DNA of 64,000 nt from Methanofollis tationis. Its GTDB lineage: Archaea > Halobacteriota > Methanomicrobia > Methanomicrobiales > Methanofollaceae. The first letter of the stretch is position 1. Each line of letters starts with the position of its first letter. The translations under genes and the position numbers were made by a program. The notes beneath the pieces are model-generated. The model saw only the letters and a list, made by a program, of their open reading frames with translations. It did not search any database and was not told the DNA's origin. The stretch lies in contig NZ_JABXWR010000001.1 in assembly GCF_013377755.1 (NCBI RefSeq), positions 2,119,104 to 2,183,103 on the forward strand. The letters run 5' to 3'. This document shows, piece by piece, positions 5,474 through 64,000 of this stretch.

Positions 5474-7279
5474 TCACAACATCTGGTACAGCGTGACCAC
5501 GTCGTTGTAGCCGATCATCCCGCTGCCGTCATAGTCGAAGGCCGCAAGGGGCTGGTGTTCCCTGATGAATGGCATGTTTTCGTAGTAGACGATGACGTCA
5601 TTGAATTCGATCAGGCCGTTTCCGTCGACGTCCTCGTACAGCCCGTCGCCGTCCGGGTCGGTGGGCGGATCTCCCTGCCCTGGAAAGGCCAGCGGGCCGG
5701 AAACCGGGCCGTTGCTCTCCAGTTTCACCACCCAGATGTCATGGCCGCCGTGGTTGCCGCTCACGTCGCCGTCGTTTGATGCGGTGCTCCCGGCGATGAT
5801 ATACCCGCCGTCCGCCGTCTGCTCTGCGCTGCCGGCACGCTCATCCGCCGATCCCCCGAGGCACCGCTGCCATTCGATCCCGCCACCGGCGTCCATCTTT
5901 ACCATCCAGATGTCATAGCCGCCGTGGTTGCCGCTTGCGTCGCCGTCGTTTGATGCGGTGCTCCCGGCAAGGATATACCCGCCTTCGTCGGTCAGCTCCA
6001 CGCTGGAACACCTGTCATCGCCAGAACCCCCGAGGCATCTCAGCCAATCTACCGCGCCGGTGGCACTGAGTTTGACCGCCATCCCGTCCGGCAGAGAGTC
6101 GAGTTCAGGATCTCCATGATATCCTTCCAGGTCTTCAGATGTGGTGGACCCTGCAAGGATGTATCCGCCATCGCCGGTCTGCCTGATGCTGTAGGCATAA
6201 TCCCTGCGGATCCCCCCGATATCGCGTTGCCACCGGGCGGCACCGGCGGCAGTGAGGTTCAGCACGTATCCGTCGAACATACCGTGTGTCCCGAGTGCCG
6301 TCCACCCGCATATGACATACTCCCCGTCTTTTGTCTGCTGTACGCATGTGTTGAACATGAAGGCGCCGAAGAGATTCTGCCACTCTATCCCCCCTTCAGG
6401 GCCAATCTTCAGCACCCAGCAGGTATCAGACGACAATCCGGTCAGATCCCCATCTGATGACGCTGCGTATCCTGCAATAATATATCCGCCCTCAGCCGTC
6501 TGCTGTACATATTCGGCTCTGTCGTCGCCGGTCCCGCCGAGGCACCGCTGCCATTCTATCGCACCTGTGGTGTTGAGTTTTATCACCCATCCGTCACGTT
6601 CGGTGATACCGCCCGGGCTGGTGCCGCCGTGATGCCCGATCACATCGCCGTCAGTGGACCTGGTGGTCGCCGCAATGATGTAACCCGTATCGTCGGTCTG
6701 CTGGATGCTGGAGGCGGTGTCCTGATCGCTTCCGCCGAGGCATCTCTCCCACTCTATCGCTCCGGTGGCATCCAGTTTCACCACCCACACATCGGTGCCG
6801 CCGTGATGCCCGATCACATCGCCGTCGGTGGACCCGGTCTCCCCGACGAGGATGTAACCGCCGTCGGTCGTCTGCCTGATGGATTTTGCCCGGTCATCGT
6901 CCGAACCCCCGAGACACCTCTGCCAGGCGATCGAAACGGGTCTTTTCTGATCCGTTCCCTCAAAGACGGCGTCTGATACTGCAGGGCGATCCCGGGAGAT
7001 CGGTTCACCTGCGGCCCCGGGATGTACGGGGTTGATCATATGCTGTCTGTTGCCCGGGAGATCAGGCGTTTTGAGGAGGGGCTCATCATGAAGAGAAACC
7101 TCCCGGTCGCCTGCGATGGTTCCGGCCTGAACGGTCAGGGTCAGAAACACTCCGGCACATAGCACTGCACATGCCAGAATGATCCCCCGACGCCTGAAGG
7201 TCAGGCTTTTTTTGCCGCCGGTTCTGTTATGGCCATGATCTGACGGCTGATCTCTGGTCCATCTGCTCTTTTCCATCAT
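5474..7279 (-). CDS. secreted seven-repeat beta-propeller-like protein with C-terminal dockerin/EF-hand module
   Basis: A predicted exported protein of about 600 residues. After a basic N-terminus and a hydrophobic stretch (ILACAVLCAGVFL) it carries seven tandem repeats of roughly 50-60 residues. Each has a core like W-QRCLGGS-DD-A-S-QQT-DGGYI-AGST-S-DGD followed by VVKL-A-GAIEW. Seven such units fit a seven-bladed propeller, though no structure can be checked here. The C-terminus has two calcium-binding-like motifs (DPDGDGLYEDVDGNG and FDYDGSG) typical of dockerin type I modules. I start at the ATG that follows a GGGGGGG Shine-Dalgarno by 6 nt (7277-7279); ATGs at 7276 and 7285 also exist. 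The role is unknown; adhesion or cell-surface assembly is likely. It stands alone. Confidence 0.75.
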   Translation of the reverse strand: MMEKSRWTRDQPSDHGHNRTGGKKSLTFRRRGIILACAVLCAGVFLTLTVQAGTIAGDREVSLHDEPLLKTPDLPGNRQHMINPVHPGAAGEPISRDRPAVSDAVFEGTDQKRPVSIAWQRCLGGSDDDRAKSIRQTTDGGYILVGETGSTDGDVIGHHGGTDVWVVKLDATGAIEWERCLGGSDQDTASSIQQTDDTGYIIAATTRSTDGDVIGHHGGTSPGGITERDGWVIKLNTTGAIEWQRCLGGTGDDRAEYVQQTAEGGYIIAGYAASSDGDLTGLSSDTCWVLKIGPEGGIEWQNLFGAFMFNTCVQQTKDGEYVICGWTALGTHGMFDGYVLNLTAAGAARWQRDIGGIRRDYAYSIRQTGDGGYILAGSTTSEDLEGYHGDPELDSLPDGMAVKLSATGAVDWLRCLGGSGDDRCSSVELTDEGGYILAGSTASNDGDASGNHGGYDIWMVKMDAGGGIEWQRCLGGSADERAGSAEQTADGGYIIAGSTASNDGDVSGNHGGHDIWVVKLESNGPVSGPLAFPGQGDPPTDPDGDGLYEDVDGNGLIEFNDVIVYYENMPFIREHQPLAAFDYDGSGMIGYNDVVTLYQML

Positions 7280-7509
7280 GTGCATCCCCCCCATACGCTG
7301 CGATCTGGTTTTGCCCCGGCGTTTCACTCCTGCAATCTTATTATGGCGCGCAGATTATTTTTGGTTTTGTATGGTTCACCCTGTCGCGGTTTTGTGGGGT
7401 CTGCACGATCCCTCCGGGGTTCACCCGCGTGAAAGGGCGAAGGGCAAAAAAATAGAATTCTGGTTTTTCAGGAGTATATAATGCAGGAGAAAGAGTCGTC
7501 TCCCCCGCA

Positions 7510-18734: not shown

Positions 18735-18921
18735 TACTTTTGTGATGTTTTTCCGCAAGGCGGAGAGCATATTTCTGGTTCATCGCTCTTTCACGCGGGT
18801 TGTCCCGATTTCACGCCCCGAGTCTGCTTATTGCGTTTCTTTTTCAGCCTCTGACCCGTGCGTGGGCGTTGCATCTTCCGGGCGCAATGTTGATAACCAG
18901 ATGTATCTATTCCACAATCTG

Positions 18922-19920
18922 ATGAAGGTAGCAATTGCCGGTGCAGGTGTAGCCGGGAGTTATTGCGCCCGGCTCCTTCTTGCCGAAGGCTACGAGATCG
19001 ATCTCTATGATCTGCCGCATCCAAACCCCTGCGGGATCGCCCCGTGCGCCTGGATGACGACGGCCGGGATAGCCCCGCTCCTTGCCGCCGCCGGACTCGA
19101 TTATCAGGCCTATATTCTCGAACGCTTCTCCTCGGTGCGCTTCGAGGACCATGAGGTCCAGGCCGCGCTGATGACGATCGACAAGCCCCGCCTGATCCGC
19201 GATTTGCAGAGCGGCATTACGGTCATTGCGGGGTCGCCTGATCCATCGCGCTACGACCGCCTCATCGATGCGACCGGGACGGCGCGGGCTTTTCTGCCGC
19301 CGGTACCTCAAGACTGCCTCGGTCAGTGCGTGCAGGTGCGCGTACAGGTCTCGCCGGCCCTTCAGTCCGTCCCCATGGTCAGGTATGTGAACGGGGGATA
19401 TGCCTGGTCCTTTCCCATAGGCTGCAATCTTCGCCACATCGGCTGCATCAGCCACCTGACGGACCCGGCTTCCCTTCTGCAGGGGTGTCATCTCCTCGAA
19501 GATGCAATCGGTCTGCCCATCTGCAGGTGCCGGAGTCTTCTGCGGGTTACAGCGCCTTCGGGCGCCCTGCCCTTTGTCTCCCCTGACAGAAAGATATGGG
19601 GGGTCGGCGAGGCGATCGGGTGCGTCTACCCCATCGTCGGCGACGGGATCGTCCCGGCGTTCGAGAGCGTGCGCCTCCTCCTCAGCCACATGGACGATCC
19701 CGGTGCTTATACCGCAGAGGTCATGGCAGCGTTTCCTCAGATGGAGGCTGAACGCGACATCCTGCTCGCCCTGAAAGCGGGCCGGCTGCCCGGGCCCGGA
19801 CAACTGCTCAGGGCAGGGGATCTGGATCGGCTCGGGATGCGAATCGGGACCGTCGAGATTGCCCGGATAATCACCCGGGCACTCGCCTGTACGAGCCAGG
19901 TCGGGGATCAGCGACCTTGA
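18922..19920 (+). CDS. FAD-dependent oxidoreductase, geranylgeranyl reductase-like
   Basis: A 332-residue flavoprotein starting with the dinucleotide-binding motif VAIAGAGVAGSYCARLL (GxGxxG, residues 3-20). The late motif GVGEAIGCVYPIVGDGIVPA near 230 resembles the FAD-ribityl GD motif of geranylgeranyl reductases and p-hydroxybenzoate hydroxylase relatives. A role in saturating isoprenoid lipid chains is possible, but the protein is shorter than typical archaeal GGR (about 400 residues). ATG 18922 is chosen because it opens the Rossmann motif; the frame is open back to 18742. Several cysteines (CRCRS near 200) are notable. Confidence 0.65.
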   Translation: MKVAIAGAGVAGSYCARLLLAEGYEIDLYDLPHPNPCGIAPCAWMTTAGIAPLLAAAGLDYQAYILERFSSVRFEDHEVQAALMTIDKPRLIRDLQSGITVIAGSPDPSRYDRLIDATGTARAFLPPVPQDCLGQCVQVRVQVSPALQSVPMVRYVNGGYAWSFPIGCNLRHIGCISHLTDPASLLQGCHLLEDAIGLPICRCRSLLRVTAPSGALPFVSPDRKIWGVGEAIGCVYPIVGDGIVPAFESVRLLLSHMDDPGAYTAEVMAAFPQMEAERDILLALKAGRLPGPGQLLRAGDLDRLGMRIGTVEIARIITRALACTSQVGDQRP

Positions 19921-20247: not shown

Positions 20248-21504
20248 GACAGTGTAACGAATCTTCTGTAAAAATAATTTGGCCCTGAATCCAACCTAGA
20301 TTTGCAGAAAGGAGAAACAGGGCCATGGATCCCTTAGCGTTAATCGAAGATTATCTTTCCGATAATGAGAATGGCATGAAGACCCTCATCACCTGGTTCC
20401 TCAACCAGGTGATGCTGCTCGAAGCCCTCCACCAGGCGGGAGCCGAGCAGTATGAACGAACCGATGCGCGGAAGGCTCACCGAAACGGCTACAAGAAGCG
20501 ATCTCTGAAAACCCGATATGGAGAAACGATCCTCCAGAAACCGCAGTTCCGAGAATTTCCCTTCGAAACACAGGTATTTGGACGCTATTCCCGGGTTGAG
20601 AAGGCTCTTGAGAATGCTATCTTTGAATCCTACCTTCAGGGAGTCTCAACCCGCCGGATCCAGGAGATTGTTGCTCATTTTGGCATCGAACAACTCTCTC
20701 CTGCTTCAGTATCCAGGATAGCAAAGGACCTCGATGAACAGGTCCATGCATTCCTTCAGAGGCCGATTGAACAGGAGATTCCCTATCTCTTTGTGGATGC
20801 TTCGTACTACAAAGTCAGAGAGGGACCACGGTACATCACCAAAGCTCTTCTGGTGATCGCCGGTGTTCGAATGGATGGCTACCGGGAAATCCTGGGAGCT
20901 AGAATCACTGATTGTGAAAATGAGATGTTCTGGTCGGGATTGTTCGAAGACCTCAAAGAACGAGGATTGGTGGGTGTCAAGATGGTTGTCTCAGATGGTC
21001 ATGCCGGGATCCAGAAGGCGGCGGAAGCCGCCTTCCTCGGCGCATCGTGGCAGATGTGCTCGGTCCATTGCACCCGGGCGGTTTTAAAGAATATTCCACG
21101 GAAACATCAGAAAGAAGTTGCTGAGTCCTTGAAGGAGGCATATGGGGACGAGGAGAGACTGCAGGAGCTTGCAGACGATCTGAACGAACGAGGATATCGG
21201 AAAGCGGCCAATACGATCGAGAGATTCATCCCGGGACTTATGAGTTACACGGCGTTCCCGAAAGAGCACGCAAAGCGGATCCGAACGACGAACATGATGG
21301 AAAGAGTCAACAAGGAACTGAAACGGAGAACCAAAGTTGTAGGGGCCTTTCCCAATGAAGAGTCACTCCTCAGGCTGGCAGGATCCATCCTGATGGACAT
21401 CAATGAGGAGTGGGTGACCGGCAGAAGATATTTGACGATGGAGGGGGAATGATCAAACAAGGAGACAGGGCTCAGACGAATTACAGAAGATCTGAAACAC
21501 TACC
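20248..21504 (+). mobile_element. complete IS256-family insertion sequence
   Basis: A 1257-bp element bounded by imperfect inverted repeats. The left end reads GACAGTGTAACGAATCTTCT and the reversed right end reads GGTAGTGTTTCAGATCTTCT; both continue with GTAA. An 8-bp direct duplication, TAGGATCT, flanks it at 20240-20247 and 21505-21512. It carries one transposase gene. Intact ends, intact gene and perfect target duplication point to a recent insertion. Confidence 0.88.
20325..21452 (+). CDS. IS256-family (mutator type) transposase
   Basis: A 375-residue DDE transposase. The catalytic aspartates appear in YLFVDASYYK near residue 150 and VVSDGHAGI near 225. The C-terminal glutamate lies in the RTTNMMERVNKELKRRTKV segment (read in parts), a hallmark of the IS256 family. 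The N-terminal region includes HRNGYKKRSLKTRYGE, also typical. ATG follows an AGGAGAAACAGGG ribosome-binding site. No frameshift or stop interrupts it, so it may be active. Codon use is AT-richer than in the host neighbours. Confidence 0.93.
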   Translation: MDPLALIEDYLSDNENGMKTLITWFLNQVMLLEALHQAGAEQYERTDARKAHRNGYKKRSLKTRYGETILQKPQFREFPFETQVFGRYSRVEKALENAIFESYLQGVSTRRIQEIVAHFGIEQLSPASVSRIAKDLDEQVHAFLQRPIEQEIPYLFVDASYYKVREGPRYITKALLVIAGVRMDGYREILGARITDCENEMFWSGLFEDLKERGLVGVKMVVSDGHAGIQKAAEAAFLGASWQMCSVHCTRAVLKNIPRKHQKEVAESLKEAYGDEERLQELADDLNERGYRKAANTIERFIPGLMSYTAFPKEHAKRIRTTNMMERVNKELKRRTKVVGAFPNEESLLRLAGSILMDINEEWVTGRRYLTMEGE

Positions 21505-22093: not shown

Positions 22094-22452
22094 CTCTTCC
22101 CTACTTTTCCGTAATGTTCGGTGATCGTTGGGTCCAGGCCGCAGACCGGGCAGGTGTAATCCTCGGCAAGGTCGTCGAATTTCGTTCCCGGAGGTATGCC
22201 GCGGTGGGGTTCTCCCCGTTTTTCGTCATACACGTAGCCGCAGATCTTGCAGACAAAACGGGTCGGCTCCCATAACTCGAACCCCCAGGTTCCGATTGGC
22301 CCTTTTCCTGTAGCGCCGCAGACCGGGCAGATATAATCGTCGGGCAGATCTTCAAACTCTGTTCCGGCCGGTATACCGCGGTGCGGCTCACCCCGCAGGG
22401 GCGAGTAGATATACCCACAGTACTTGCAGATGTATCGCCGTGCTTTTTGCAT
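22069..22452 (-). CDS. two-domain rubredoxin
   Basis: A 127-residue protein made of two rubredoxin units. Each has a CxxCG pair near its start (CKYCGYIY and CKICGYVY) and a CPVCG pair after a [15 protein letters not shown] segment. Each unit should bind one iron in a Cys4 site. Rubredoxins pass single electrons to oxygen- or peroxide-detoxifying enzymes in anaerobes. Start at ATG 22452 with a GGAG site upstream; the nine residues further upstream in frame are not family-like. No partner redox gene is adjacent. Confidence 0.92.
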
Positions 22453-22594
22453 AGGACGTCTCCAGGGGTGGATGGGCACCGCGTACTATATAATGCTGTC
22501 TGGATCAGGTCACCCCCCGGTGTGCGGGGCCGGGCGATCCCTCCGGGAGCAAAAACCGGGGCTTTATCATGGTATCGGCATATATTTTCCGGAC

Positions 22595-23347
22595 ATGAGA
22601 TGGTGTCCTCTGTTCAGGTGCACGGTATGGGCGATCGTCGCCCTCTTTCTCCTCGGGGCTCCGGCGGTCTCCGCAGCGACGATCGAGGCCGTACTCGGTG
22701 AAGACATCCCGCTTTCGGGGACCTCGACCGGGGGCGGCGACGTATATCTCTTCCTCACCGGGCCGAACCTCGCCGCCGGCGGCGTCAGCCTTGACCGCCT
22801 CTCTCCGGTCGCGACCGGGTCGAAATCATCCTTCACCGTCGTCTCCACCGGCGACGACAACCGCTGGAACTACCGCTGGAAGACCGCCGGACTCGCCCTT
22901 GACCCTGGCGCGTACACCCTGTACGCCTCTGACACGCCGGCGGCGAGGGGAGCCCTCGGCGCACGCAATGCCGTGTACGGCACGGTCGGGATCAGTCTTC
23001 GCAGCCCCGGTCTCACCCCTGACACCGGGGGAACGCTGACGATCGACGCATCGGTGGACGGTGCCCGGGTTGCGGTGAACGGAGAAGAGATCGGCGCCGC
23101 CCCTCTGACCCTGAAGGGGCTTGGGCCGGGCGAATATCGGGTCGGCGTCAACGCAAGCGGTTATGAACCCTGGTCGGGCGCGGCGGTGGTAAATGGGAGC
23201 GGTACGACGGAGATCAGCGCCGACCTGATCCCGCTGACGACTGTGGAGACAACGGTGCCCTCCACCCCGGCAACCACGCCCGCGTCGGCCTCCCCCCTCC
23301 CTGCCGCCTTTATTCCCCTGATCCTCTTCGCCCTCAGAAAGAGATGA
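22595..23347 (+). CDS. exported PEGA-domain surface protein with C-terminal membrane anchor
   Basis: A 250-residue secreted protein with an N-terminal signal peptide (TVWAIVALFLLGAPAVSAA) and an N-terminal domain beginning ATIEAVLGEDIPLSGTS, as in many Methanomicrobiales surface proteins. A PEGA domain (about 150-215, with VDGARVAVNGEEIGAAPLTL) is followed by a Thr/Pro-rich spacer (TTVETTVPSTPATTP) and a hydrophobic tail ending RKR. The layout fits an S-layer-associated or membrane-tethered protein. ATG 22595 immediately precedes the signal peptide; the upstream open frame overlaps the rubredoxin promoter and is not used. Confidence 0.72.
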   Translation: MRWCPLFRCTVWAIVALFLLGAPAVSAATIEAVLGEDIPLSGTSTGGGDVYLFLTGPNLAAGGVSLDRLSPVATGSKSSFTVVSTGDDNRWNYRWKTAGLALDPGAYTLYASDTPAARGALGARNAVYGTVGISLRSPGLTPDTGGTLTIDASVDGARVAVNGEEIGAAPLTLKGLGPGEYRVGVNASGYEPWSGAAVVNGSGTTEISADLIPLTTVETTVPSTPATTPASASPLPAAFIPLILFALRKR

Positions 23348-33869: not shown

Positions 33870-34874
33870 TTATTTCCGCCTCAACACCAGGAGGAGTGCA
33901 GCCGCCGCACCGATCAGGGGCAGGAGCGCTGTCCCGGCCGCCTGCGTCGTCGGTGCCGTCGTCGGCGGCGCTGTGGTCTCCGTGGCGGTCGGCAGGGCCG
34001 TGGTTGCGGTCGTCACCGGCGGTGTCGTGGCCGTCGGTGCAGGGGGTGCCGTCGTCGGTGGCGCTGTGGTCTCCGTCGTCGCCGGCGTCACCGTGACGTC
34101 CACTCCTATCCGGTCGCCCACAAAGAACGTGATTACATTCGAGTCCTCTGCGGAGTCGGCAAAACTCTGCGGAGAACGCCACCGCGCCTGCACCCTGTAT
34201 GTGCCCTCTTCAAGGCGGTCGAGGACGATCGGGGCGGCGAGGTCGTCGGTGTAGAACTGCTGGGCCGTGACCGGAAGGTTTGCAAGGTTCGCCCCGCCGA
34301 AGGCGGTCATCTCGGCGCCGCCCGGCGTCGTGACGACAATATCGACGGAGGCATGGGTCGCTCCAGCGACATAATCACTCCCCACGAACGGCGAGACGAC
34401 CTTGATCGCGATCGACGTTCCGACAGGTATCGTAATCCCTTCGATCCTCTCGGCATGATACGGGTTTGCGAGCACCGCCTCGATGCTCACTTCTGGATAA
34501 CGCACGGTGACGCTCTTTGTCGTCAGGCCGTCCGCCTGGCTGTAGGCATAATACAGCCCGGTGTACCCCCTGACCGAGGCGTCCAGCACGTCAAGGTTCG
34601 TATCGTCCGCCACCGGGATCTCGTTGACGATCCCTTTTGTGACGTCGTCGTCGGTGAAACGCCTGAGGGCAGTGACCGGGTTGCCGGTCGCGGTATTCTG
34701 CAGGGCGGTGATATCGAGTCCCTCCTCATAGACGAATATCGTGTCGCCCGGCAGGACATCGGAAATGGTGGCGCCCCGTGCCGAAACCGGAGCGGCAAGT
34801 GCCGCAAAGAGCAGCAGTGCAAGGCAGCAGAGCACGCATATGCCTGTCCCTGTATGATCCAGTCTTCGCTCCAT
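33870..34874 (-). CDS. DUF3821 surface protein with Thr-rich stalk and membrane anchor
   Basis: A 334-residue exported protein. A signal peptide (ICVLCCLALLLFAALAAPVSA) is followed by the DUF3821 N-terminal motif ATISDVLPGDTIFVYEEGLD, which is typical of Methanomicrobiales surface proteins. Ig-like beta domains come next, then a Thr/Pro-rich stalk of TTAPPTTAP-like repeats, and a C-terminal hydrophobic helix ending LRRK. The stalk is likely O-glycosylated and exposed outside the cell. ATG 34874 directly precedes the signal peptide; the frame is open upstream only as a shadow of the RecJ-like gene. Confidence 0.8.
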   Translation of the reverse strand: MERRLDHTGTGICVLCCLALLLFAALAAPVSARGATISDVLPGDTIFVYEEGLDITALQNTATGNPVTALRRFTDDDVTKGIVNEIPVADDTNLDVLDASVRGYTGLYYAYSQADGLTTKSVTVRYPEVSIEAVLANPYHAERIEGITIPVGTSIAIKVVSPFVGSDYVAGATHASVDIVVTTPGGAEMTAFGGANLANLPVTAQQFYTDDLAAPIVLDRLEEGTYRVQARWRSPQSFADSAEDSNVITFFVGDRIGVDVTVTPATTETTAPPTTAPPAPTATTPPVTTATTALPTATETTAPPTTAPTTQAAGTALLPLIGAAAALLLVLRRK

Positions 34875-34959
34875 AATGATCCTACCCATGCGGTTTGGAA
34901 AACTTATGCCTTTCGCAAAATCAGAGAAAAAGAGATTGATGGTATGGATTCCGGGTGCC

Positions 34960-36798
34960 TTATTCGACCGGGGCCTGCCCGATCTTCTCGATAAGGCCGT
35001 TGAGGGAGGCTTCGCGCATACCCTCGACGAACTTGATCGAGCCGACGACCAGGTGACCGCCGCCGCTGATGCCGCCGCCGGTGATCTCGTCATGGAGTTC
35101 GCGGACCATCCGCGGGATGTTCATGAGCACGCCGCGGGAGCGGAGCACTGCAAAGTCCGGGCCAAAACCGAGAGTGACCACCGGTTCTCCCGGGTGCTGC
35201 CGGCAGAGCCGGTCGTGGATCTCGCCCGAGGTCTTGCCCGGCGGGGGGAAGGTGAAGCGGTGGGCGAAGATCTCCACGTCGATCCTGAAGAGATATGCCC
35301 CGTTCGGGAGCCGCTCCTCGACCACATGGGGCATGGACGCCGCCATCTGCTCTTCGATTGCCGCGTTCGCCGATTCGACCAGGAGGCCGATGAGGTTCTT
35401 ATGGAGGTCGCGGTTCCCCTTGAGATTGAGGATGTCCTTGATCAGTTCCCTGCCGTCGTTGAACCTGAGCCAGAACTGCTCGTAGTCCAGGGCAAGGGCG
35501 ATGTCCTTGCATTCCTGCTCGGAATAATCCTCTGCGATGAGGTCGAGATAGCGCTGCCGTTCGGGCGCCTCGCTCCGGTCGCCGACGCCCGCGACGGCTG
35601 GCAGGTGCCTGATTGCGTCGCTGACCTTCGGGTTGATCAGCCGCGCCACCTCGGTCCCGAGCATGCCGGCCGTGACCCCGAAATCCCCGCCGACGTGGTA
35701 GGGGTTGACATGGGCGATCACGTAGTCGTCGACGATTGCGTCCGGGTGGTGGTGGTCGACGACGATCATCGGGAGGCTATAGATCTGGGCCATCTTCATC
35801 GAGGGGAGGTCCTCCTCGGTGGAGCCGTTGTCCATCAGGACGATCAGCGGCATCTTCTGCCCGAACCGCTCGTGGTCCTTCAGGGCGAAGTCGAGGTCGC
35901 GGGTGATGTCCTCGATCTCATAGAAGGGCGCCTTTGAGGGGGAGCGCTTGAAGAGATAGTAGGCGGTGTCCAGGTCGTCGCCTTCCTGGCGCATCAGGGA
36001 GATCACCGCCTGCTCGACGGCGACGGCGGCCGAGATGCCGTCGGCGTCTGCATGGTGGCGGAGGATGATCGGCTGCGCCTCGAAGACGGCCCGCCTGATC
36101 ATCTTTGCAACTTTCCGCATCGCGGGGCGCAGGCGGTCGAGGACGTCGCTCTCGATCAGGAGCGGGATATCCTCGGGTTCGGCGCGCGCGTCGAGGGCTG
36201 TCTCGATCCGGTCGTGCACTCTCTGTGCGTCCTCGCCGGTGAGCGCCTCCATCGAGCTGACCTCGATCTGGAGCTGGTTCTGCCGGCGCATCACCTCTCC
36301 GCTGACCATCACGGTGCTCCCGAGTTCGATCTCGGGATATGCCCGGACGCCGGCCTCGATAAAGGCGGCGGCGTTGCCGCTCCCGGACTCATCGACGAGG
36401 GTGAAGATCGTCGGCCCGCTCGTCTGCTTGATCTGGGCGACCGAGGCTTCGAGGGTGACGCTCCTGCCGACCTGCGATGAGAGATCGCCCATTTTTGTCA
36501 CATGGACCCGCCTGGTGACAGTCTCGAGCCGGTACACCCGGGGCAGGACCTCTGCAAGGTCAATGTTCCCGTTGTTCCTGATATTGATGACCTTTACAAA
36601 GATCTGCTCGCGCTCCTGGTGCTCCTGAACCATGTTGCTCTTGTGGATCAGTCCCTTGAGCCGGGCGTTCAACTGGACGAAGGTTCCGAAGTTTGCAAAG
36701 CCCTGAACGGTCCCTGCATAGGTTTTCCCTTCTTCGACCTCCCCGATCCCGCAGTTAGGGCCGAGGGAATAGATTATCGTATCTTCTTGATTCGCCAT
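34960..36798 (-). CDS. RecJ-like DHH phosphoesterase with S1 and OB domains
   Basis: A 612-residue protein with an N-terminal S1 RNA-binding domain (about 20-85, YAGTVQGFANFGTFVQLNARLKGLIH read in parts), an OB-fold (about 95-195) and a DHH catalytic region starting with ILRHHADADGISAAVAVEQ (DHH motif I). VLMDNGSTEED and VVDHHHPD (the DHH motif) follow, then a DHHA1-type tail with GGGISGGGHLVVGS. This is the archaeal S1-OB-DHH type of RecJ homologue, an RNA or DNA exonuclease; related proteins join the GINS/CMG replisome as GAN. Metal ligands (H, D, DHHH) appear intact. It is followed by the DUF3821 gene after 85 nt. Confidence 0.87.
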   Translation of the reverse strand: MANQEDTIIYSLGPNCGIGEVEEGKTYAGTVQGFANFGTFVQLNARLKGLIHKSNMVQEHQEREQIFVKVINIRNNGNIDLAEVLPRVYRLETVTRRVHVTKMGDLSSQVGRSVTLEASVAQIKQTSGPTIFTLVDESGSGNAAAFIEAGVRAYPEIELGSTVMVSGEVMRRQNQLQIEVSSMEALTGEDAQRVHDRIETALDARAEPEDIPLLIESDVLDRLRPAMRKVAKMIRRAVFEAQPIILRHHADADGISAAVAVEQAVISLMRQEGDDLDTAYYLFKRSPSKAPFYEIEDITRDLDFALKDHERFGQKMPLIVLMDNGSTEEDLPSMKMAQIYSLPMIVVDHHHPDAIVDDYVIAHVNPYHVGGDFGVTAGMLGTEVARLINPKVSDAIRHLPAVAGVGDRSEAPERQRYLDLIAEDYSEQECKDIALALDYEQFWLRFNDGRELIKDILNLKGNRDLHKNLIGLLVESANAAIEEQMAASMPHVVEERLPNGAYLFRIDVEIFAHRFTFPPPGKTSGEIHDRLCRQHPGEPVVTLGFGPDFAVLRSRGVLMNIPRMVRELHDEITGGGISGGGHLVVGSIKFVEGMREASLNGLIEKIGQAPVE

Positions 36799-58590: not shown

Positions 58591-60567
58591 TCAGGTGCGC
58601 TCATAGACCGTAACCCCGGCGGCATTGTACACCGGCATGAGCCCGTCCGCCGGGAGGTTGATCTGGTAGGTCTCCTCTTCGAGGTCGCCGACGTAAAGGA
58701 TGGTGGCGCCGTATTTTTCCATGAGGGCAAGACACTCTGTAGGGTTCTCGTATATCGCCTGCACGTCCGCTTTACGTTTGGATATCGCGTCCCAATCGCT
58801 CCGCCACATCTGTTCGTGGAATGGCTGGCCGAGGACTGTCGGGATGCCGGTGAAGGCCGAGACGCGGCCGGCATGGGTGTAGTCGCCGCCGACCGCCTCG
58901 ACGAGAATGAGGCTCCCCTCCTCTGCCTGGAGCCACGCAATGGCGGCGGCGTCGCCAGGGTGCTGCGTCTGGAGCCAGGCAAGGCCGTCCAGGGAGCGCG
59001 AGGCGTAGCCGAAGTCGAGGTCGATCGCAAGGGGGGCGATTAAGAGGGCAAGAGCGGCGACGGCTGCAAGGGCGTGTTTCCTTTTCCCTGCGACCCGGTC
59101 GACCAGACCGGTCCCGGCGATCCGCTCGCCGAGCATCAGCAGCACGCCGGTCCCGAGGAGGATCCAGGCGACCGAGTAGCACTTGAAGACAGAGTTCAGC
59201 CGGTAATACACGCCTCCCATGTTGTCCTTCAGGTAGAAGAATTCGCAGATGATGACGATCACGAGGCCGGCGGCGCAGAGGAGGTCGATCGGCGAGAGGC
59301 GGCGGCGCGAGAGGATCGCCGCGAGCGGCAGGGCGGCGATCCCTGCGGCGACGTATCCGGCCAGGCCGAGGATCGCCGGCGCACCGAGGAGCCAGGGGCG
59401 GGCGAGGACGTCGCGGGCAGAGGCGGCATAGAGCACGGCGAGGAAAAAGCCGTGGACGAGGAGGAACTGGACGGGATCGGTGGGTGCGGTCACAAGGCCT
59501 GCCCCTTCGACCCCCGCGCCGGCGAACTGGAGGTAATAGGGGGCGTACAGGGCGATCGAGAGGGGCGGGACGGCGACGAGGAAGAGCGGATCGCCGTGCC
59601 GCCGCCAGATCAGGAGCCCTGCAACAACGACAAGGGGGGCGTAGAGGAGGACGTCCCATGAGTTGATCGGTGGTATCGAGCCCAGGCTGACGGCGGTGCA
59701 GGCGACAAGACCGATCCTGGCGTTTCGGCCGAGCCCTTCCCACCTTGTCAGGGCATAGCAGAGGAGGAAGATGAGGAGGAACTGGCCGAAGATCCCCAGG
59801 ACATGCGGGTGCAGGTCGCCCCAGAGGAAGGAGAACATGGTGTACTCGTTGATCGTTCCGTCGATGACGCGGGTGCTGTTCCAGAGGAGGGTCTGCATCG
59901 GCGTACCGGAGAGCGCCTCCCACAGGAAGGCCGGGTTTACCAGGGGAAAGATGAGGAGGGGGATCCATGCGGCCTTCGGGACGAGCAGGCGCCCGGTCGC
60001 ATAGGCCATGACGGCCGCCGCCCCGAGCACGGTGGGGAGACCGAGGTTGAAGACGACGGAGGACGGCACCCCGGCCGTGATCCCGAGCGCTCCAGGCGTC
60101 CAGTATCCCATATAGTAATAGATATCGAGGGTTCCCCCGGCAAACCAGGGGTCGAGGGGGGGGACGACCGGTTCGCGCATGATAGAGGCGAGAAAGGCGT
60201 GGTCCATGAACTTCTCGGCAAACGAGATCGTCGGGTTGACGAAGCGGAAGAGGAGCATCGAGGTGAAAAAGACGAGGAAGACGGCGTCCCAGTGTGCGAA
60301 TCGTTTGAACTCCTCGACGGTGTATTCGCGCCGCCAGAGTGCGTATGCCGCCAGGGCGGCAAAGGGCAGGAGGGCGGCCTGCACCGGGAGGTGGAGGAGG
60401 GCGAGGTACCAGGATGCGGCCCCGAAGAGGAGGATGGAGAGCGGGTATGCCGCCGGGTAGGCGAACTCCCCGAGCACCGTGGTGAGGCGCGGCCAGAGGG
60501 CGCACTGGATCGCCTTGATCAGGACGATCCAGGAGACGACCATGAGGACCTGCGCCTCAGGGCTCAC
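58591..60567 (-). CDS. DUF2298 (Chlor_Arch_YYY) membrane protein
   Basis: A 658-residue polytopic membrane protein with at least a dozen hydrophobic segments. The family signature is visible near residues 115-160 as SFAEKFMDHAFLASIMR, DPWFAGGTLDIYYYMGYW and the following TPGALG segment; the run of tyrosines gives the YYY name. Related multi-span proteins are lipid-linked sugar transferases, and the operon context with GT2 and a flippase-like protein supports a role in glycan assembly, but no activity has been shown. A C-terminal soluble domain (about 520-658) lies outside the membrane. It overlaps the preceding gene by 11 nt. Confidence 0.82.
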   Translation of the reverse strand: MSPEAQVLMVVSWIVLIKAIQCALWPRLTTVLGEFAYPAAYPLSILLFGAASWYLALLHLPVQAALLPFAALAAYALWRREYTVEEFKRFAHWDAVFLVFFTSMLLFRFVNPTISFAEKFMDHAFLASIMREPVVPPLDPWFAGGTLDIYYYMGYWTPGALGITAGVPSSVVFNLGLPTVLGAAAVMAYATGRLLVPKAAWIPLLIFPLVNPAFLWEALSGTPMQTLLWNSTRVIDGTINEYTMFSFLWGDLHPHVLGIFGQFLLIFLLCYALTRWEGLGRNARIGLVACTAVSLGSIPPINSWDVLLYAPLVVVAGLLIWRRHGDPLFLVAVPPLSIALYAPYYLQFAGAGVEGAGLVTAPTDPVQFLLVHGFFLAVLYAASARDVLARPWLLGAPAILGLAGYVAAGIAALPLAAILSRRRLSPIDLLCAAGLVIVIICEFFYLKDNMGGVYYRLNSVFKCYSVAWILLGTGVLLMLGERIAGTGLVDRVAGKRKHALAAVAALALLIAPLAIDLDFGYASRSLDGLAWLQTQHPGDAAAIAWLQAEEGSLILVEAVGGDYTHAGRVSAFTGIPTVLGQPFHEQMWRSDWDAISKRKADVQAIYENPTECLALMEKYGATILYVGDLEEETYQINLPADGLMPVYNAAGVTVYERT

Positions 60568-61528
60568 GCAGTTCCTCCCTGGAGAGCCCCTCGTGGAACG
60601 AGCGCTTCATCAGGTGTACCGACCAGTCGCCGAAGTAGTAGAGGGATCCGATCCCGCCGACGAGAGTGACCAGGTTCTTGATCAGGTGGTCGACGACGGC
60701 GATCACGGTGGCCGTCGCCGGGGCCGTGCCGGCGAGCTCGAAGGTAATGGCGAGGGCGAATTCGTAGGTGCCGACACCGCCCGGGGTGATCGGTACGGCC
60801 TTGACCAGATTGCCGATGACGATGGCGAGCACGACGACCATGAAGGGGATGCTCTCGCCGAACATCAGGACCACGACGGCGCAGACCAGGATGTCCGCAA
60901 GCCAGATCGCGATCGAGGAGGCCCCGAGCACGAGCAGGGCCCTCGCGTTCAAGGAGGCCGCCCTGATCTCGGCGAGCATGCCGTAGACGATGCCGAGATA
61001 CCTGTTCTCGGAATGGCGGTCGCCCATCAGGAGGAGGAAAGCGGCGAAGACCGCCCCGCCGACGATCGGGACGGCGATGAGGGGCAGAAACCATTCGGGG
61101 GTTTCGATAACGAACGGGAGCGCCACAAGGCCGAGGAGGGCGATCGTCACCACGTCGAAGATCCGCTCGACGACGAGAGAGGAGACGCCCTGCGAGTAGG
61201 TCGCCAGGTCCTCGTGCTTGAGGATGAAGATCCTGACCAGGTCGCCGAGGCGGGCCGGGACGATCAGGTTTGCCGTCTGCGAGAGGAGGATGCAGGCTGT
61301 GGAGAAGACGAGGGCGATTCTGACGGCGAGGCCGCCCAGAATAGACCGGTACCGCCATCCCCGCATGATCCAGGCGATGGCGCAGACCAGGACGGCGACG
61401 GCGAGGTACAGGGGATCGGCATGGACGAGGGTGATCACCAGGTCGTCCCAGACCCGCCAGAGCATGTACGCCAGGATCCCGCAGGCGATCAGGGTCGGAA
61501 TGACGACGGCGCTAACTTTTCGCCACAT
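60557..61528 (-). CDS. UPF0104/lysylphosphatidylglycerol synthase-like membrane protein
   Basis: A 323-residue integral membrane protein with about eight helices. Family segments are SILGGLAVRIALVFSTACILLSQTANLIVPARLGDLVRIF (read in parts), with the conserved PARLGDLVRI motif, and AVPITPGGVGTYEFALAI near 245. These belong to the flippase-like UPF0104 group, which includes AglD-associated lipid-handling proteins in archaea. It overlaps the GT2 gene by 17 nt and the DUF2298 gene by 11 nt, so it is in one operon with them. Confidence 0.82.
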   Translation of the reverse strand: MWRKVSAVVIPTLIACGILAYMLWRVWDDLVITLVHADPLYLAVAVLVCAIAWIMRGWRYRSILGGLAVRIALVFSTACILLSQTANLIVPARLGDLVRIFILKHEDLATYSQGVSSLVVERIFDVVTIALLGLVALPFVIETPEWFLPLIAVPIVGGAVFAAFLLLMGDRHSENRYLGIVYGMLAEIRAASLNARALLVLGASSIAIWLADILVCAVVVLMFGESIPFMVVVLAIVIGNLVKAVPITPGGVGTYEFALAITFELAGTAPATATVIAVVDHLIKNLVTLVGGIGSLYYFGDWSVHLMKRSFHEGLSREELREP

Positions 61529-62222
61529 GGATCTGCCACCAGAGCCACAGGATCTGCGAGCCCATAGAGAATATGTCCTTGAACCGGACGGTCGTGCCCG
61601 GCCCCTGCCGCCAGACCACCGGAAACTCGGCGATCCGGTAGCCCTTCCGCTGCCCGCGCACCAGCGACTCGGTGTCCCAGAACCAGTGCGGGGCCCGGAT
61701 CTCCGGTATCAGGTCGAGGATACGCTCTCTCCTGAACCCTTTGAACCCGCACTGGTGGTCGTAGAGCCTGCTCCCGAGGATCGTGCGCACCAGGAAGTTG
61801 TAGCCGCGGCTGGCGATCTCCCGCCCGCCGCTCCTGACGATGTTGGAGTCGGGCATCAGCCGCGATCCCGTGGCGATATCGGCCCCGTCCCGGATCGCCC
61901 CGACGAGTTCGGGCAGGTGGGCGAGATCGGTGGCGAGATCGACGTCGTAATAGCAGACGATCCCGTACCTCGCCGCGGCGATCGCCCTGTTGAGGGCCCG
62001 ACCCCGGCCGAGCCTCTCGTCGGCGTGGAGGAGGACGACGCGGGGGTCTTTCTCGTGCCACTCCTGCACGTATTCGGCGCTCCCGTCGGTGCTCCCGTCC
62101 TCGGCGACGATCACCTCGAAGGTTTCCGTGATCGCTGCGAGGGCGGCGATGGACGCCGGGATCGCCTCTTCAAGGGCGGTGCGGTCGTTGTAGACCGGGA
62201 GGATCACCGAGACGCCGTTCAT
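61512..62222 (-). CDS. family 2 glycosyltransferase (dolichyl-phosphate sugar synthase-like)
   Basis: A 236-residue GT-A enzyme. Recognised motifs are VSVILPVYND near 4-13, AEDGSTDGS near 40, CYYDVDLATDLAHLPEL near 90 (DxD-like metal site) and DHQCGFKGFRRE near 150. The C-terminal FWDTESL-RG---GYRIAEFPVVW stretch is typical of dolichol-phosphate glucose or mannose synthases. It probably transfers a sugar from a nucleotide donor to a polyprenyl phosphate at the membrane. The donor sugar is unknown. The ATG overlaps the FAD-protein stop (ATGA). Confidence 0.85.
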   Translation of the reverse strand: MNGVSVILPVYNDRTALEEAIPASIAALAAITETFEVIVAEDGSTDGSAEYVQEWHEKDPRVVLLHADERLGRGRALNRAIAAARYGIVCYYDVDLATDLAHLPELVGAIRDGADIATGSRLMPDSNIVRSGGREIASRGYNFLVRTILGSRLYDHQCGFKGFRRERILDLIPEIRAPHWFWDTESLVRGQRKGYRIAEFPVVWRQGPGTTVRFKDIFSMGSQILWLWWQIHVAKS

Positions 62223-63448
62223 TGCACCGCTCCCGTGATCCGTGCCGCCACCTCCTGTCCGGCGGCAATCGATCCTTCCATCGACCGCTCCGGGTAGTTC
62301 GGGCGGGAGAACATCCCGGCAAGGTACAGCCCGTGCTCCTCGTAGGCCGGGATGATGCCGGCGAAGCCGGTGGTATAGACCGGTCCGGCGAAACGCTCCA
62401 CGGCGAGTTCGCTCCAGTGGACGGCGGTCTTCGGGACGGAGAAGCGCCTGCAGAAGTCAGAGAGCATCGTCTCTTTCAGGTTGGGTGCCGGTTTCTCCCC
62501 GAAATACGAGGCGAGGTAGACGACCTCCTCGCCGTAGCGCTCACGCGGCGCAAAATTCGTGTGGGCGACGACGGCGCCGTACGGGGCGGGGTCTTTCATG
62601 TTCAACCAGTATATGCCGTTGGTGACGTCCCGGTCGAGCCCGATCGTCATGCAGGCCGCACCCTGGTACGGGATCTCTGCGAACCCCCCCATGCCGCTGA
62701 GTCTGCCGATCTCCTGCGGTGGTATGGTGGCGAGGACGGCGTCAAAACGCTGACCGTTCACCTCCCACCCGTCTCCGGTGCGCCTGATCGCCGTGACCGA
62801 TGTTCCGGTCTCGATGGCGGCGCCTCTCTTCTGCGCCTCCTCTGCCATCCCGTCGACAAGTTCGTGCCACCCGCCCCTCATATAGCCGAGGCGTTCGCCC
62901 TCAACTCCCCGGTCTGAGCGGATGGCGATCCTGGAGATGAGCCACGCCGCCGAGACCTCGTCGCGCCGGTCACCGAACTTGCTCCGCAGCAGCGGTTCGA
63001 AAAACGAGGCGTACACGCTCTCGCCCAGGTTCTTCCTGATATACTCCGATGCCGGCACCGCGTCCAGCGCTGCAAGGTCCAGCCGTTTCGCCCGCAGGGT
63101 CAGCAGCCCGAGGCGGACCTTGTCGGCGAGGGAGAGGTGAGGGTAGCGGAGGATCTCGATCGGGCTGGTCAGCGGGTGGATCGTCCCGTCTACATAGTAG
63201 CCGGTCGAGCCGCTGAGCCATTCGAAGCGGTCGGAGAGACCGAGATCCCTGATCAGGGAAAAGAGGCGTTCGTCACCGGCGAAACAGTGGTGGTAGTAGC
63301 GTTCGATCCAGTAGTCATCCCGTTTGTAGGAGGCGAGACACCCGCCAAGAAGGGGTCTGCTCTCGAATATTGTGACCCCGGCGGTTTCTGTGAGGGGGAG
63401 AGCGGCGGCAAGGCCGGTGAGGCCACCCCCTATGATACAAATATCCAT
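62219..63448 (-). CDS. FAD/NAD(P)-binding oxidoreductase (COG1232-like)
   Basis: A 409-residue flavoprotein starting with the FAD motif MDICIIGGGLTGLAAAL (GxGxxG) and containing FESRPLLGGCLASYK near 33-47. A late FAD-binding stretch YLAGMFSRPNYPERSMEGSIAAGQEVA (read in parts) is typical of protoporphyrinogen-oxidase-like or carotenoid/isoprenoid desaturase-like enzymes and UDP-galactopyranose mutase relatives. Placement at the head of a glycan-type operon suggests it acts on a polyprenyl lipid or a nucleotide sugar, which is inference. ATG 63448 is chosen over TTG 63457. Confidence 0.75.
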   Translation of the reverse strand: MDICIIGGGLTGLAAALPLTETAGVTIFESRPLLGGCLASYKRDDYWIERYYHHCFAGDERLFSLIRDLGLSDRFEWLSGSTGYYVDGTIHPLTSPIEILRYPHLSLADKVRLGLLTLRAKRLDLAALDAVPASEYIRKNLGESVYASFFEPLLRSKFGDRRDEVSAAWLISRIAIRSDRGVEGERLGYMRGGWHELVDGMAEEAQKRGAAIETGTSVTAIRRTGDGWEVNGQRFDAVLATIPPQEIGRLSGMGGFAEIPYQGAACMTIGLDRDVTNGIYWLNMKDPAPYGAVVAHTNFAPRERYGEEVVYLASYFGEKPAPNLKETMLSDFCRRFSVPKTAVHWSELAVERFAGPVYTTGFAGIIPAYEEHGLYLAGMFSRPNYPERSMEGSIAAGQEVAARITGAVQ

Positions 63449-63579
63449 AATCTGCAATAGTGTGTATCATCCAAAGCGCATAAGAAAGTTTTTGAACTCT
63501 TATGAGAACTCTACTATTAGCTAGATACCAGCAACGAGCGTTCTTGCATTTATGGTAGCCGACTGGATGGTGTAACTGA

Positions 63580-64000
63580 ATGAGAGTATTTTTCATAGGA
63601 TTCGGCCAGGCTGGCGGTAAGGTTGTCGACATGTTCATCGAGCAGGACAAAAAGTCCGGGATGAACAGTTTCAGGGGGATCGTTGTCAATACCGCCCGCA
63701 CCGACCTTATGGGGCTCAAAAACATCGAACTCAAAGATCGCATACTTATCGGCCAGACTGTGGTCAAAGGTCATGGCGTGGGAACCGACAACGTCACCGG
63801 CGCCCGGATCGCCGCGGACGAGATCGATTCGATCATCAATTCGATCGATACCCGCGGTACCCATGACGTGGATGCCTTTGTGATTGTGGCAGGTCTCGGT
63901 GGCGGGACGGGCTCCGGCGGTTCCCCGGTGCTTGCACGCCACCTGAAGAGGATCTACCGCGAGCCGGTCTATGTGCTCGGTCTCCTTCCCGCCCCCGAGG
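63580..64000 (+). CDS. cetZ: CetZ tubulin-superfamily protein, truncated by window edge
   Basis: The first 140 residues of a CetZ-type GTPase. The N-terminal FFIGFGQAGGKVVDMFIEQ, the ILIGQTVVKGHGVGTDNVTGAR segment (read in parts) and the tubulin signature GGGTGSGG near residue 108 are present, continuing into KRIYREPVYVLGLLPAPE. CetZ proteins control cell shape and motility in haloarchaea; the KGHGVG motif separates CetZ from FtsZ. ATG 63580 is preceded by AT-rich TATA-like sequence (CTACTATTAG near 63512). The C-terminal half lies outside the window. Confidence 0.87.
   Translation, partial: MRVFFIGFGQAGGKVVDMFIEQDKKSGMNSFRGIVVNTARTDLMGLKNIELKDRILIGQTVVKGHGVGTDNVTGARIAADEIDSIINSIDTRGTHDVDAFVIVAGLGGGTGSGGSPVLARHLKRIYREPVYVLGLLPAPE

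Follow-up and report, generated by a model that had tools for sequence, protein, structure and literature searches.

Four overlapping genes in a 64,000-nucleotide stretch of Methanofollis tationis DNA (contig NZ_JABXWR010000001.1, positions 2,119,104-2,183,103; hereafter, the window), together with a fifth gene just beyond its end, form a module that, on balance, probably carries out glycosylation at the extracytoplasmic membrane face from dolichyl-phosphate (Dol-P)-hexose. The module comprises a flavin adenine dinucleotide (FAD)-dependent oxidoreductase, a GT2 glycosyltransferase, a UPF0104 membrane protein, a DUF2298 membrane protein, and a TIGR03663/Agl23 protein. That these genes belong to one module is nearly certain, and Dol-P-hexose is likely to be the donor; O-glycans are proposed more tentatively as the product. 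The preliminary description of the window read the four-gene operon as a compact route of sugar loading, flipping, and transfer, and this logic is well supported by the co-occurrence of the genes in archaea and Chloroflexota (Matthews correlation coefficients [MCC] of 0.95 to 0.96 and 0.86 to 0.96, respectively) and by the GT-C-like fold predicted for DUF2298.

The operon consists of four minus-strand open reading frames (ORFs) at positions 58591-63448, with the transcription order FAD enzyme, GT2, UPF0104, and DUF2298 (Table 1). Successive genes overlap by 4, 17, and 11 nt, within the 4 to 17 nt originally described, and each product matches its family. The FAD enzyme is a member of NF005560/PRK07233 (460.6 bits; cut-off, 252) and also matches PF01593. 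The DUF2298 protein exceeds the curated cut-offs of PF10060 (331.8 bits; cut-off, 27.8) and TIGR03662 (486.8 bits; cut-off, 300.25), and the motif for which the latter family (chlor_Arch_YYY) is named, Y150-Y151-Y152-x-G154, is invariant in 48 sequences. The UPF0104 protein matches PF03706 (164.5 bits) and TIGR00374 (103 bits). The GT2 protein matches PF00535 (97 bits) and conserves D93-x-D95, QCGFK, and WDTE, the DxD and associated motifs of DPM1/ALG5-like synthases; its PDB matches are ArnC and Dol-P-Man synthase. It reached no curated equivalog cut-off in NCBIfam, and its Dol-P-hexose product is a prediction. The fifth gene (531 aa) lies approximately 3 kb upstream of the operon on the same strand; its family carries the NCBIfam name "flippase activity-associated protein Agl23," and its product matches the PMT_2 and PMT domains.

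The distribution of these families was determined in 197 genomes of the window's phylum, 35 of them from its order (Methanomicrobiales), and in 121 genomes of Chloroflexota. In the phylum, where DUF2298 was counted from strong hits, DUF2298, NF005560, and TIGR03663 were found in 97, 100, and 99 genomes, respectively; DUF2298 shares 96 genomes with NF005560 (MCC, 0.950) and 96 with TIGR03663 (MCC, 0.960), and with the window's order removed, these values are 0.936 and 0.948. The corresponding Chloroflexota counts are 78, 84, and 78 genomes, with 77 shared pairwise (MCC, 0.856 to 0.964). The three genes vary together within families; in one family, probably the Methanosarcinaceae, all three are present only in the genus Methanosarcina, and Haloferax volcanii and Methanosarcina acetivorans each match all three. 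The NCBI notes on TIGR03663 are said to mention co-occurrence with TIGR03662 already. Two controls were included. PF03706 was present in 192/197 genomes, so UPF0104 was ruled out as a stand-alone marker of the module. STT3 was present in 185/197 genomes of the phylum (MCC, 0.17) and in a single genome of the 121 Chloroflexota, 78 of which have DUF2298; the module thus does not accompany STT3/AglB and is not a by-product of oligosaccharyltransferase-dependent N-glycosylation.

Gene order points in the same direction. All 35 genomes of the order retain the cassette, with the FAD gene approximately 3 kb upstream of DUF2298 and a FAD-UPF0104-DUF2298 span of approximately 4.5 kb; in those checked position by position, UPF0104 lies between the other two. 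Elsewhere, the same genes are regrouped as TIGR03663-FAD-GT2-DUF2298-DUF2298-UPF0104-GT2 in Methanocellales (L072), TIGR03663-FAD-(GT2+UPF0104)-DUF2298 in "Ca. Mnemosynella" (L138), FAD followed by DUF2298 and a GT2+UPF0104 fusion in Methanosarcina (L110 and further loci), FAD-GT2-DUF2298 in Aenigmatarchaeota (L140 and L144), and DUF2298-TIGR03663-(UPF0104)-FAD in Chloroflexota (L182-L188, with UPF0104 in L184-L186). GT2-UPF0104 fusions adjoin DUF2298 in other lineages, and their GT2 parts are 44-54% identical to the GT2 protein of the window; haloarchaea-like genomes that encode large DUF2298 proteins also have the FAD gene, although at an unlinked position. Order-wide synteny, co-occurrence, and clustering in unrelated lineages together lead us to reject the idea that four glycan genes came to lie side by side simply by chance.

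The modeled fold suggests that DUF2298 is very probably a GT-C enzyme. With an AF2 model built from 48 sequences (predicted local distance difference test [pLDDT] score, 82.9; predicted template modeling score, 0.88), the top 41 rows of the VIA structural comparison were all GT-C enzymes (Z, 11.7 to 5.6), and the next, unrelated row scored 4.7. The matches included yeast STT3 (11.7), AftA (11.3, with 463 residues aligned at 5.1 Å), PMT (10.6), ArnT (9.8), AglB (9.7), DPY19 (9.2), and ALG12 (9.1), together with Emb, and residues 530-658 resemble the C-terminal globular domain of AglB (3vu0; Z, 9.3; 2.7 Å over 108 residues). The model places E118 (47/48 sequences) and D139 (48/48) in the first outer loop, which follows the first core helix, as expected of the acidic residues of a GT-C catalytic loop; both are predicted to be catalytic. 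H253, H255, R456, N458, and K462 are invariant, and the motifs GDLHPH and RxNxxFK are conserved. A Pfam search of DUF2298 returned PF10060 as the sole match and neither the PMT nor the PMT_2 domain.

We suggest that the GT2 enzyme, as judged from its family and motifs, would load a hexose onto dolichyl phosphate in the cytoplasm and that UPF0104, with or without TIGR03663/Agl23, for which a flipping activity has been published, may move the Dol-P-hexose to the outer face, where DUF2298 would transfer the hexose to an external acceptor. TIGR03663, with its PMT-like domain, may serve as a second transferase, and the flavoenzyme may modify the isoprenoid carrier or, alternatively, the sugar attached to it. 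The likeliest acceptors would be Thr and Ser residues in the Thr-rich stalks of surface proteins, among them those of the S-layer.

Both candidate substrates of the flavoenzyme are compatible with its predicted fold. The model (pLDDT, 90.6) is nearest to phytoene desaturase (Z, 35.9; 402 residues aligned at 2.9 Å), followed by amino-acid/amine oxidases and protoporphyrinogen oxidases; UDP-galactopyranose mutase ranks further down (Z, ~30). It is conceivable, if somewhat short of probable, that the enzyme reduces, desaturates, or isomerizes the polyprenyl chain to give a dedicated carrier and does not act on the sugar, a role compatible with any reading of the remaining genes: phytoene desaturase, an isoprenoid enzyme, is the top match by sequence profile (E value, 1.6e-23) as well as by fold, and HpnE is the next NCBIfam model after NF005560, but UDP-galactopyranose mutase, which acts on a sugar, has the same fold, so that the fold cannot decide between carrier and sugar. 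A role as a general dolichol saturase seems unlikely, since the distribution of the FAD family parallels that of the module and roughly half of the genomes in the phylum lack it.

A number of observations weigh against the outer-face glycosylation that we propose. The evidence that DUF2298 is a GT-C enzyme comes from predicted structure, because sequence comparison revealed no tie to known GT-C families: a DUF2298 profile matched no PDB sequence up to an E value of 0.5, HHalign detected no homology with TIGR03663 (probability, 3.6%), and Foldseek gave DPY19 (E value, 2.3e-6) as its single significant match to the model. A few genomes depart from the pattern, such as G120 and G165, which have the FAD and TIGR03663 genes without DUF2298, and the genomes in the co-occurrence counts are not phylogenetically independent. 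The published role of Haloarcula hispanica Agl23, which we place in TIGR03663 by family name, is that of a putative Glc/Gal-P-Dol flippase for extracellular glycans that include N- as well as O-glycans (PMC11182771).

This last point bears on an unlikely but coherent alternative, namely, that an N-glycan receives a peripheral sugar from the module, the hexose being charged onto its own Dol-P, flipped, and joined to the protein-bound glycan. AglD, AglR, and AglS of Haloferax volcanii handle Dol-P-mannose by matching logic, in which one sugar is loaded by a GT2 enzyme, moved out, and transferred outside (PMC4335974). Compared by description, however, the module differs from that system in having DUF2298 as the proposed transferase, a constant flavoenzyme and TIGR03663, and no tracking of STT3. 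The near absence of STT3 from the Chloroflexota, where DUF2298 is common, argues against an N-glycan role, as does the presence of STT3 in almost every genome of the window's phylum that lacks the module.

Equally improbable, in our estimation, is glycosylation of a membrane lipid or surface polysaccharide in the manner of mycobacterial AftA/Emb, with the flavoenzyme in a DprE1-like role on a lipid-linked sugar. AftA has the fullest coverage and the lowest root mean square deviation among the top full-length GT-C rows, and AftA and EmbA-C share with the module the GT-C fold, a near full-length structural alignment in the case of AftA, and a polyprenyl-phosphate sugar donor; the presence of the set in many Chloroflexota is also in keeping with such a role. 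DprE1, however, belongs to a flavoprotein family other than that of the module flavoenzyme, no sequence relation between DUF2298 and AftA/EmbA-C was found, and their accessory genes are different. Moreover, the C-terminal domain of DUF2298 resembles that of a protein glycosyltransferase (AglB), and Agl23 is tied to the glycans of glycoproteins. Least probable is that DUF2298 and TIGR03663, with GT-C-like folds, mainly translocate Dol-P-sugars or lipid-linked oligosaccharides for transfer by an unlinked enzyme: purified H. hispanica Agl23 does translocate M5GN2-PP-Dol in liposomes and rescue a yeast rft1 deletion (PMC11182771), despite the PMT-type domain in TIGR03663, but DUF2298 retains E118/D139 at the GT-C catalytic position together with the invariant H253, H255, R456, and K462, and UPF0104 is already a candidate flippase.

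Outer-face glycosylation by the five genes invites comparison with two further systems. The PMT (GT39) enzymes with Dol-P-Man synthase are similar in their GT-C fold, in the logic of a Dol-P-sugar donor, and in the proposed Thr/Ser acceptors, and TIGR03663 matches their Pfam domains; DUF2298, in contrast, has no PMT match and carries an AglB-like C-terminal domain. The H. hispanica Agl22/Agl23 system is closer in that TIGR03663, which bears the Agl23 name, is the tightest partner of DUF2298 and in that a Glc/Gal-P-Dol role has been reported, whereas the published descriptions searched do not mention DUF2298, the FAD enzyme, or a GT2-UPF0104 unit. Thus, the suggestion in the preliminary description of an undescribed pathway stands for the five-gene set, for DUF2298 as a predicted GT-C enzyme, and for the link to a previously unreported flavoenzyme partner, but the pathway is not wholly undescribed, as the fifth partner, TIGR03663/Agl23, has already been studied and partly characterized. 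No functional study of DUF2298/TIGR03662 was found in the open literature searched.

Methanoculleus marisnigri, in which N- and O-glycans were studied by Kelly in 2022, reportedly carries hexose O-glycans in a Thr-rich region. The Thr-rich regions of haloarchaeal S-layer proteins bear Gal-Glc disaccharides, the pathway to which is stated to be unknown (PMC4245038 and PMC8241124), and such a disaccharide is compatible with an STT3-independent, five-gene Dol-P-hexose set that includes two GT-C-type proteins. In a bolder version, which we hold loosely, the five genes may be the archaeal machinery for surface protein O-glycosylation, common to Chloroflexota, in which TIGR03663 and DUF2298, as two GT-C enzymes, would build a hexose disaccharide on Thr stepwise from Dol-P-hexoses; the flavoenzyme would contribute a step, on the carrier or the sugar, unlike any in the known pathways of Dol-P-hexose. 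As the enzymes of archaeal O-glycosylation are likewise stated to be unknown in those reports, the gene set offers a short, genetically testable list of candidates. It also provides a candidate function for DUF2298, which roughly half of the genomes sampled from the phylum and two thirds of those from the Chloroflexota possess, and connects surface glycosylation in both archaea and bacteria with an uncharacterized flavoenzyme family.

Secreted proteins with Thr-rich stalks in the window were originally put forward as targets. The idea is plausible, but "many" was an overstatement, as the window contains two clear cases (Table 1). The first has a Thr/Pro-rich stretch with 18 Thr in 40 residues, followed by a C-terminal hydrophobic segment and RRK.

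Table 1. Genes of the proposed glycosylation module and candidate target proteins
Feature	Position	Strand	Remarks
FAD-dependent oxidoreductase, NF005560/PRK07233 family (PF01593)	62219..63448	-	ATG start; TTG alternative at 63457 possible
GT2 glycosyltransferase, predicted polyprenyl/dolichyl-phosphate hexose synthase	61512..62222	-	Dol-P-hexose-synthase-like motifs
UPF0104/LPG_synthase_TM integral membrane protein, predicted flippase or GT2 membrane partner	60557..61528	-	PF03706, TIGR00374
DUF2298/TIGR03662 membrane protein, predicted GT-C glycosyltransferase	58591..60567	-	GTG start; PF10060, TIGR03662
TIGR03663/Agl23	source contig ~2185547-2187142	- (operon strand)	425.9 bits; cut-off, 126.25
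Candidate target, secreted protein related to MEMAR_RS02690 S-layer glycoprotein family	33873-35093	-	93 bits, below cut-off of 600
Candidate target, second protein with Thr/Pro/Ser-rich end followed by short hydrophobic C terminus	~22424-23347	+	—

DUF2298 and its partners also occur in other arrangements. Second DUF2298 paralogues lie outside the cassette in several genomes of the order (L062 and L063), and one genome has a second FAD-GT2-UPF0104 cassette (L064; G033:C26, 2138-5100) on a short contig without a DUF2298 match. In ANME-2 and other Methanosarcinales (L099, L101, L103, L107-L109, and L111-L113), DUF2298 is followed by a KaiC/RadA-like ATPase of ~247 aa, with no GT2 or FAD gene nearby. 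Proteins of 1500-2700 aa with DUF2298 domains were found at L145, L147, and L149 and in Chloroflexota genomes G260, G294, and G326; several carry two such domains, and they adjoin a single-domain DUF2298 protein.

Upstream of the operon, on the opposite strand, lie a CetZ tubulin gene (from 63580) and then a gene for a putative secreted coiled-coil protein, which together (window positions 63580-64000 and L159, 6684-8990) separate TIGR03663 from the operon; this odd yet conserved pair adjoins the cassette in L032-L035 as well. Elsewhere in the window, the long ORFs at 5474-7327 (-) and 18742-19920 (+) had no NCBIfam match at 1e-20, another protein matches a methanogenesis marker model, and an IS256 family transposase is encoded at 20325-21452 (+).

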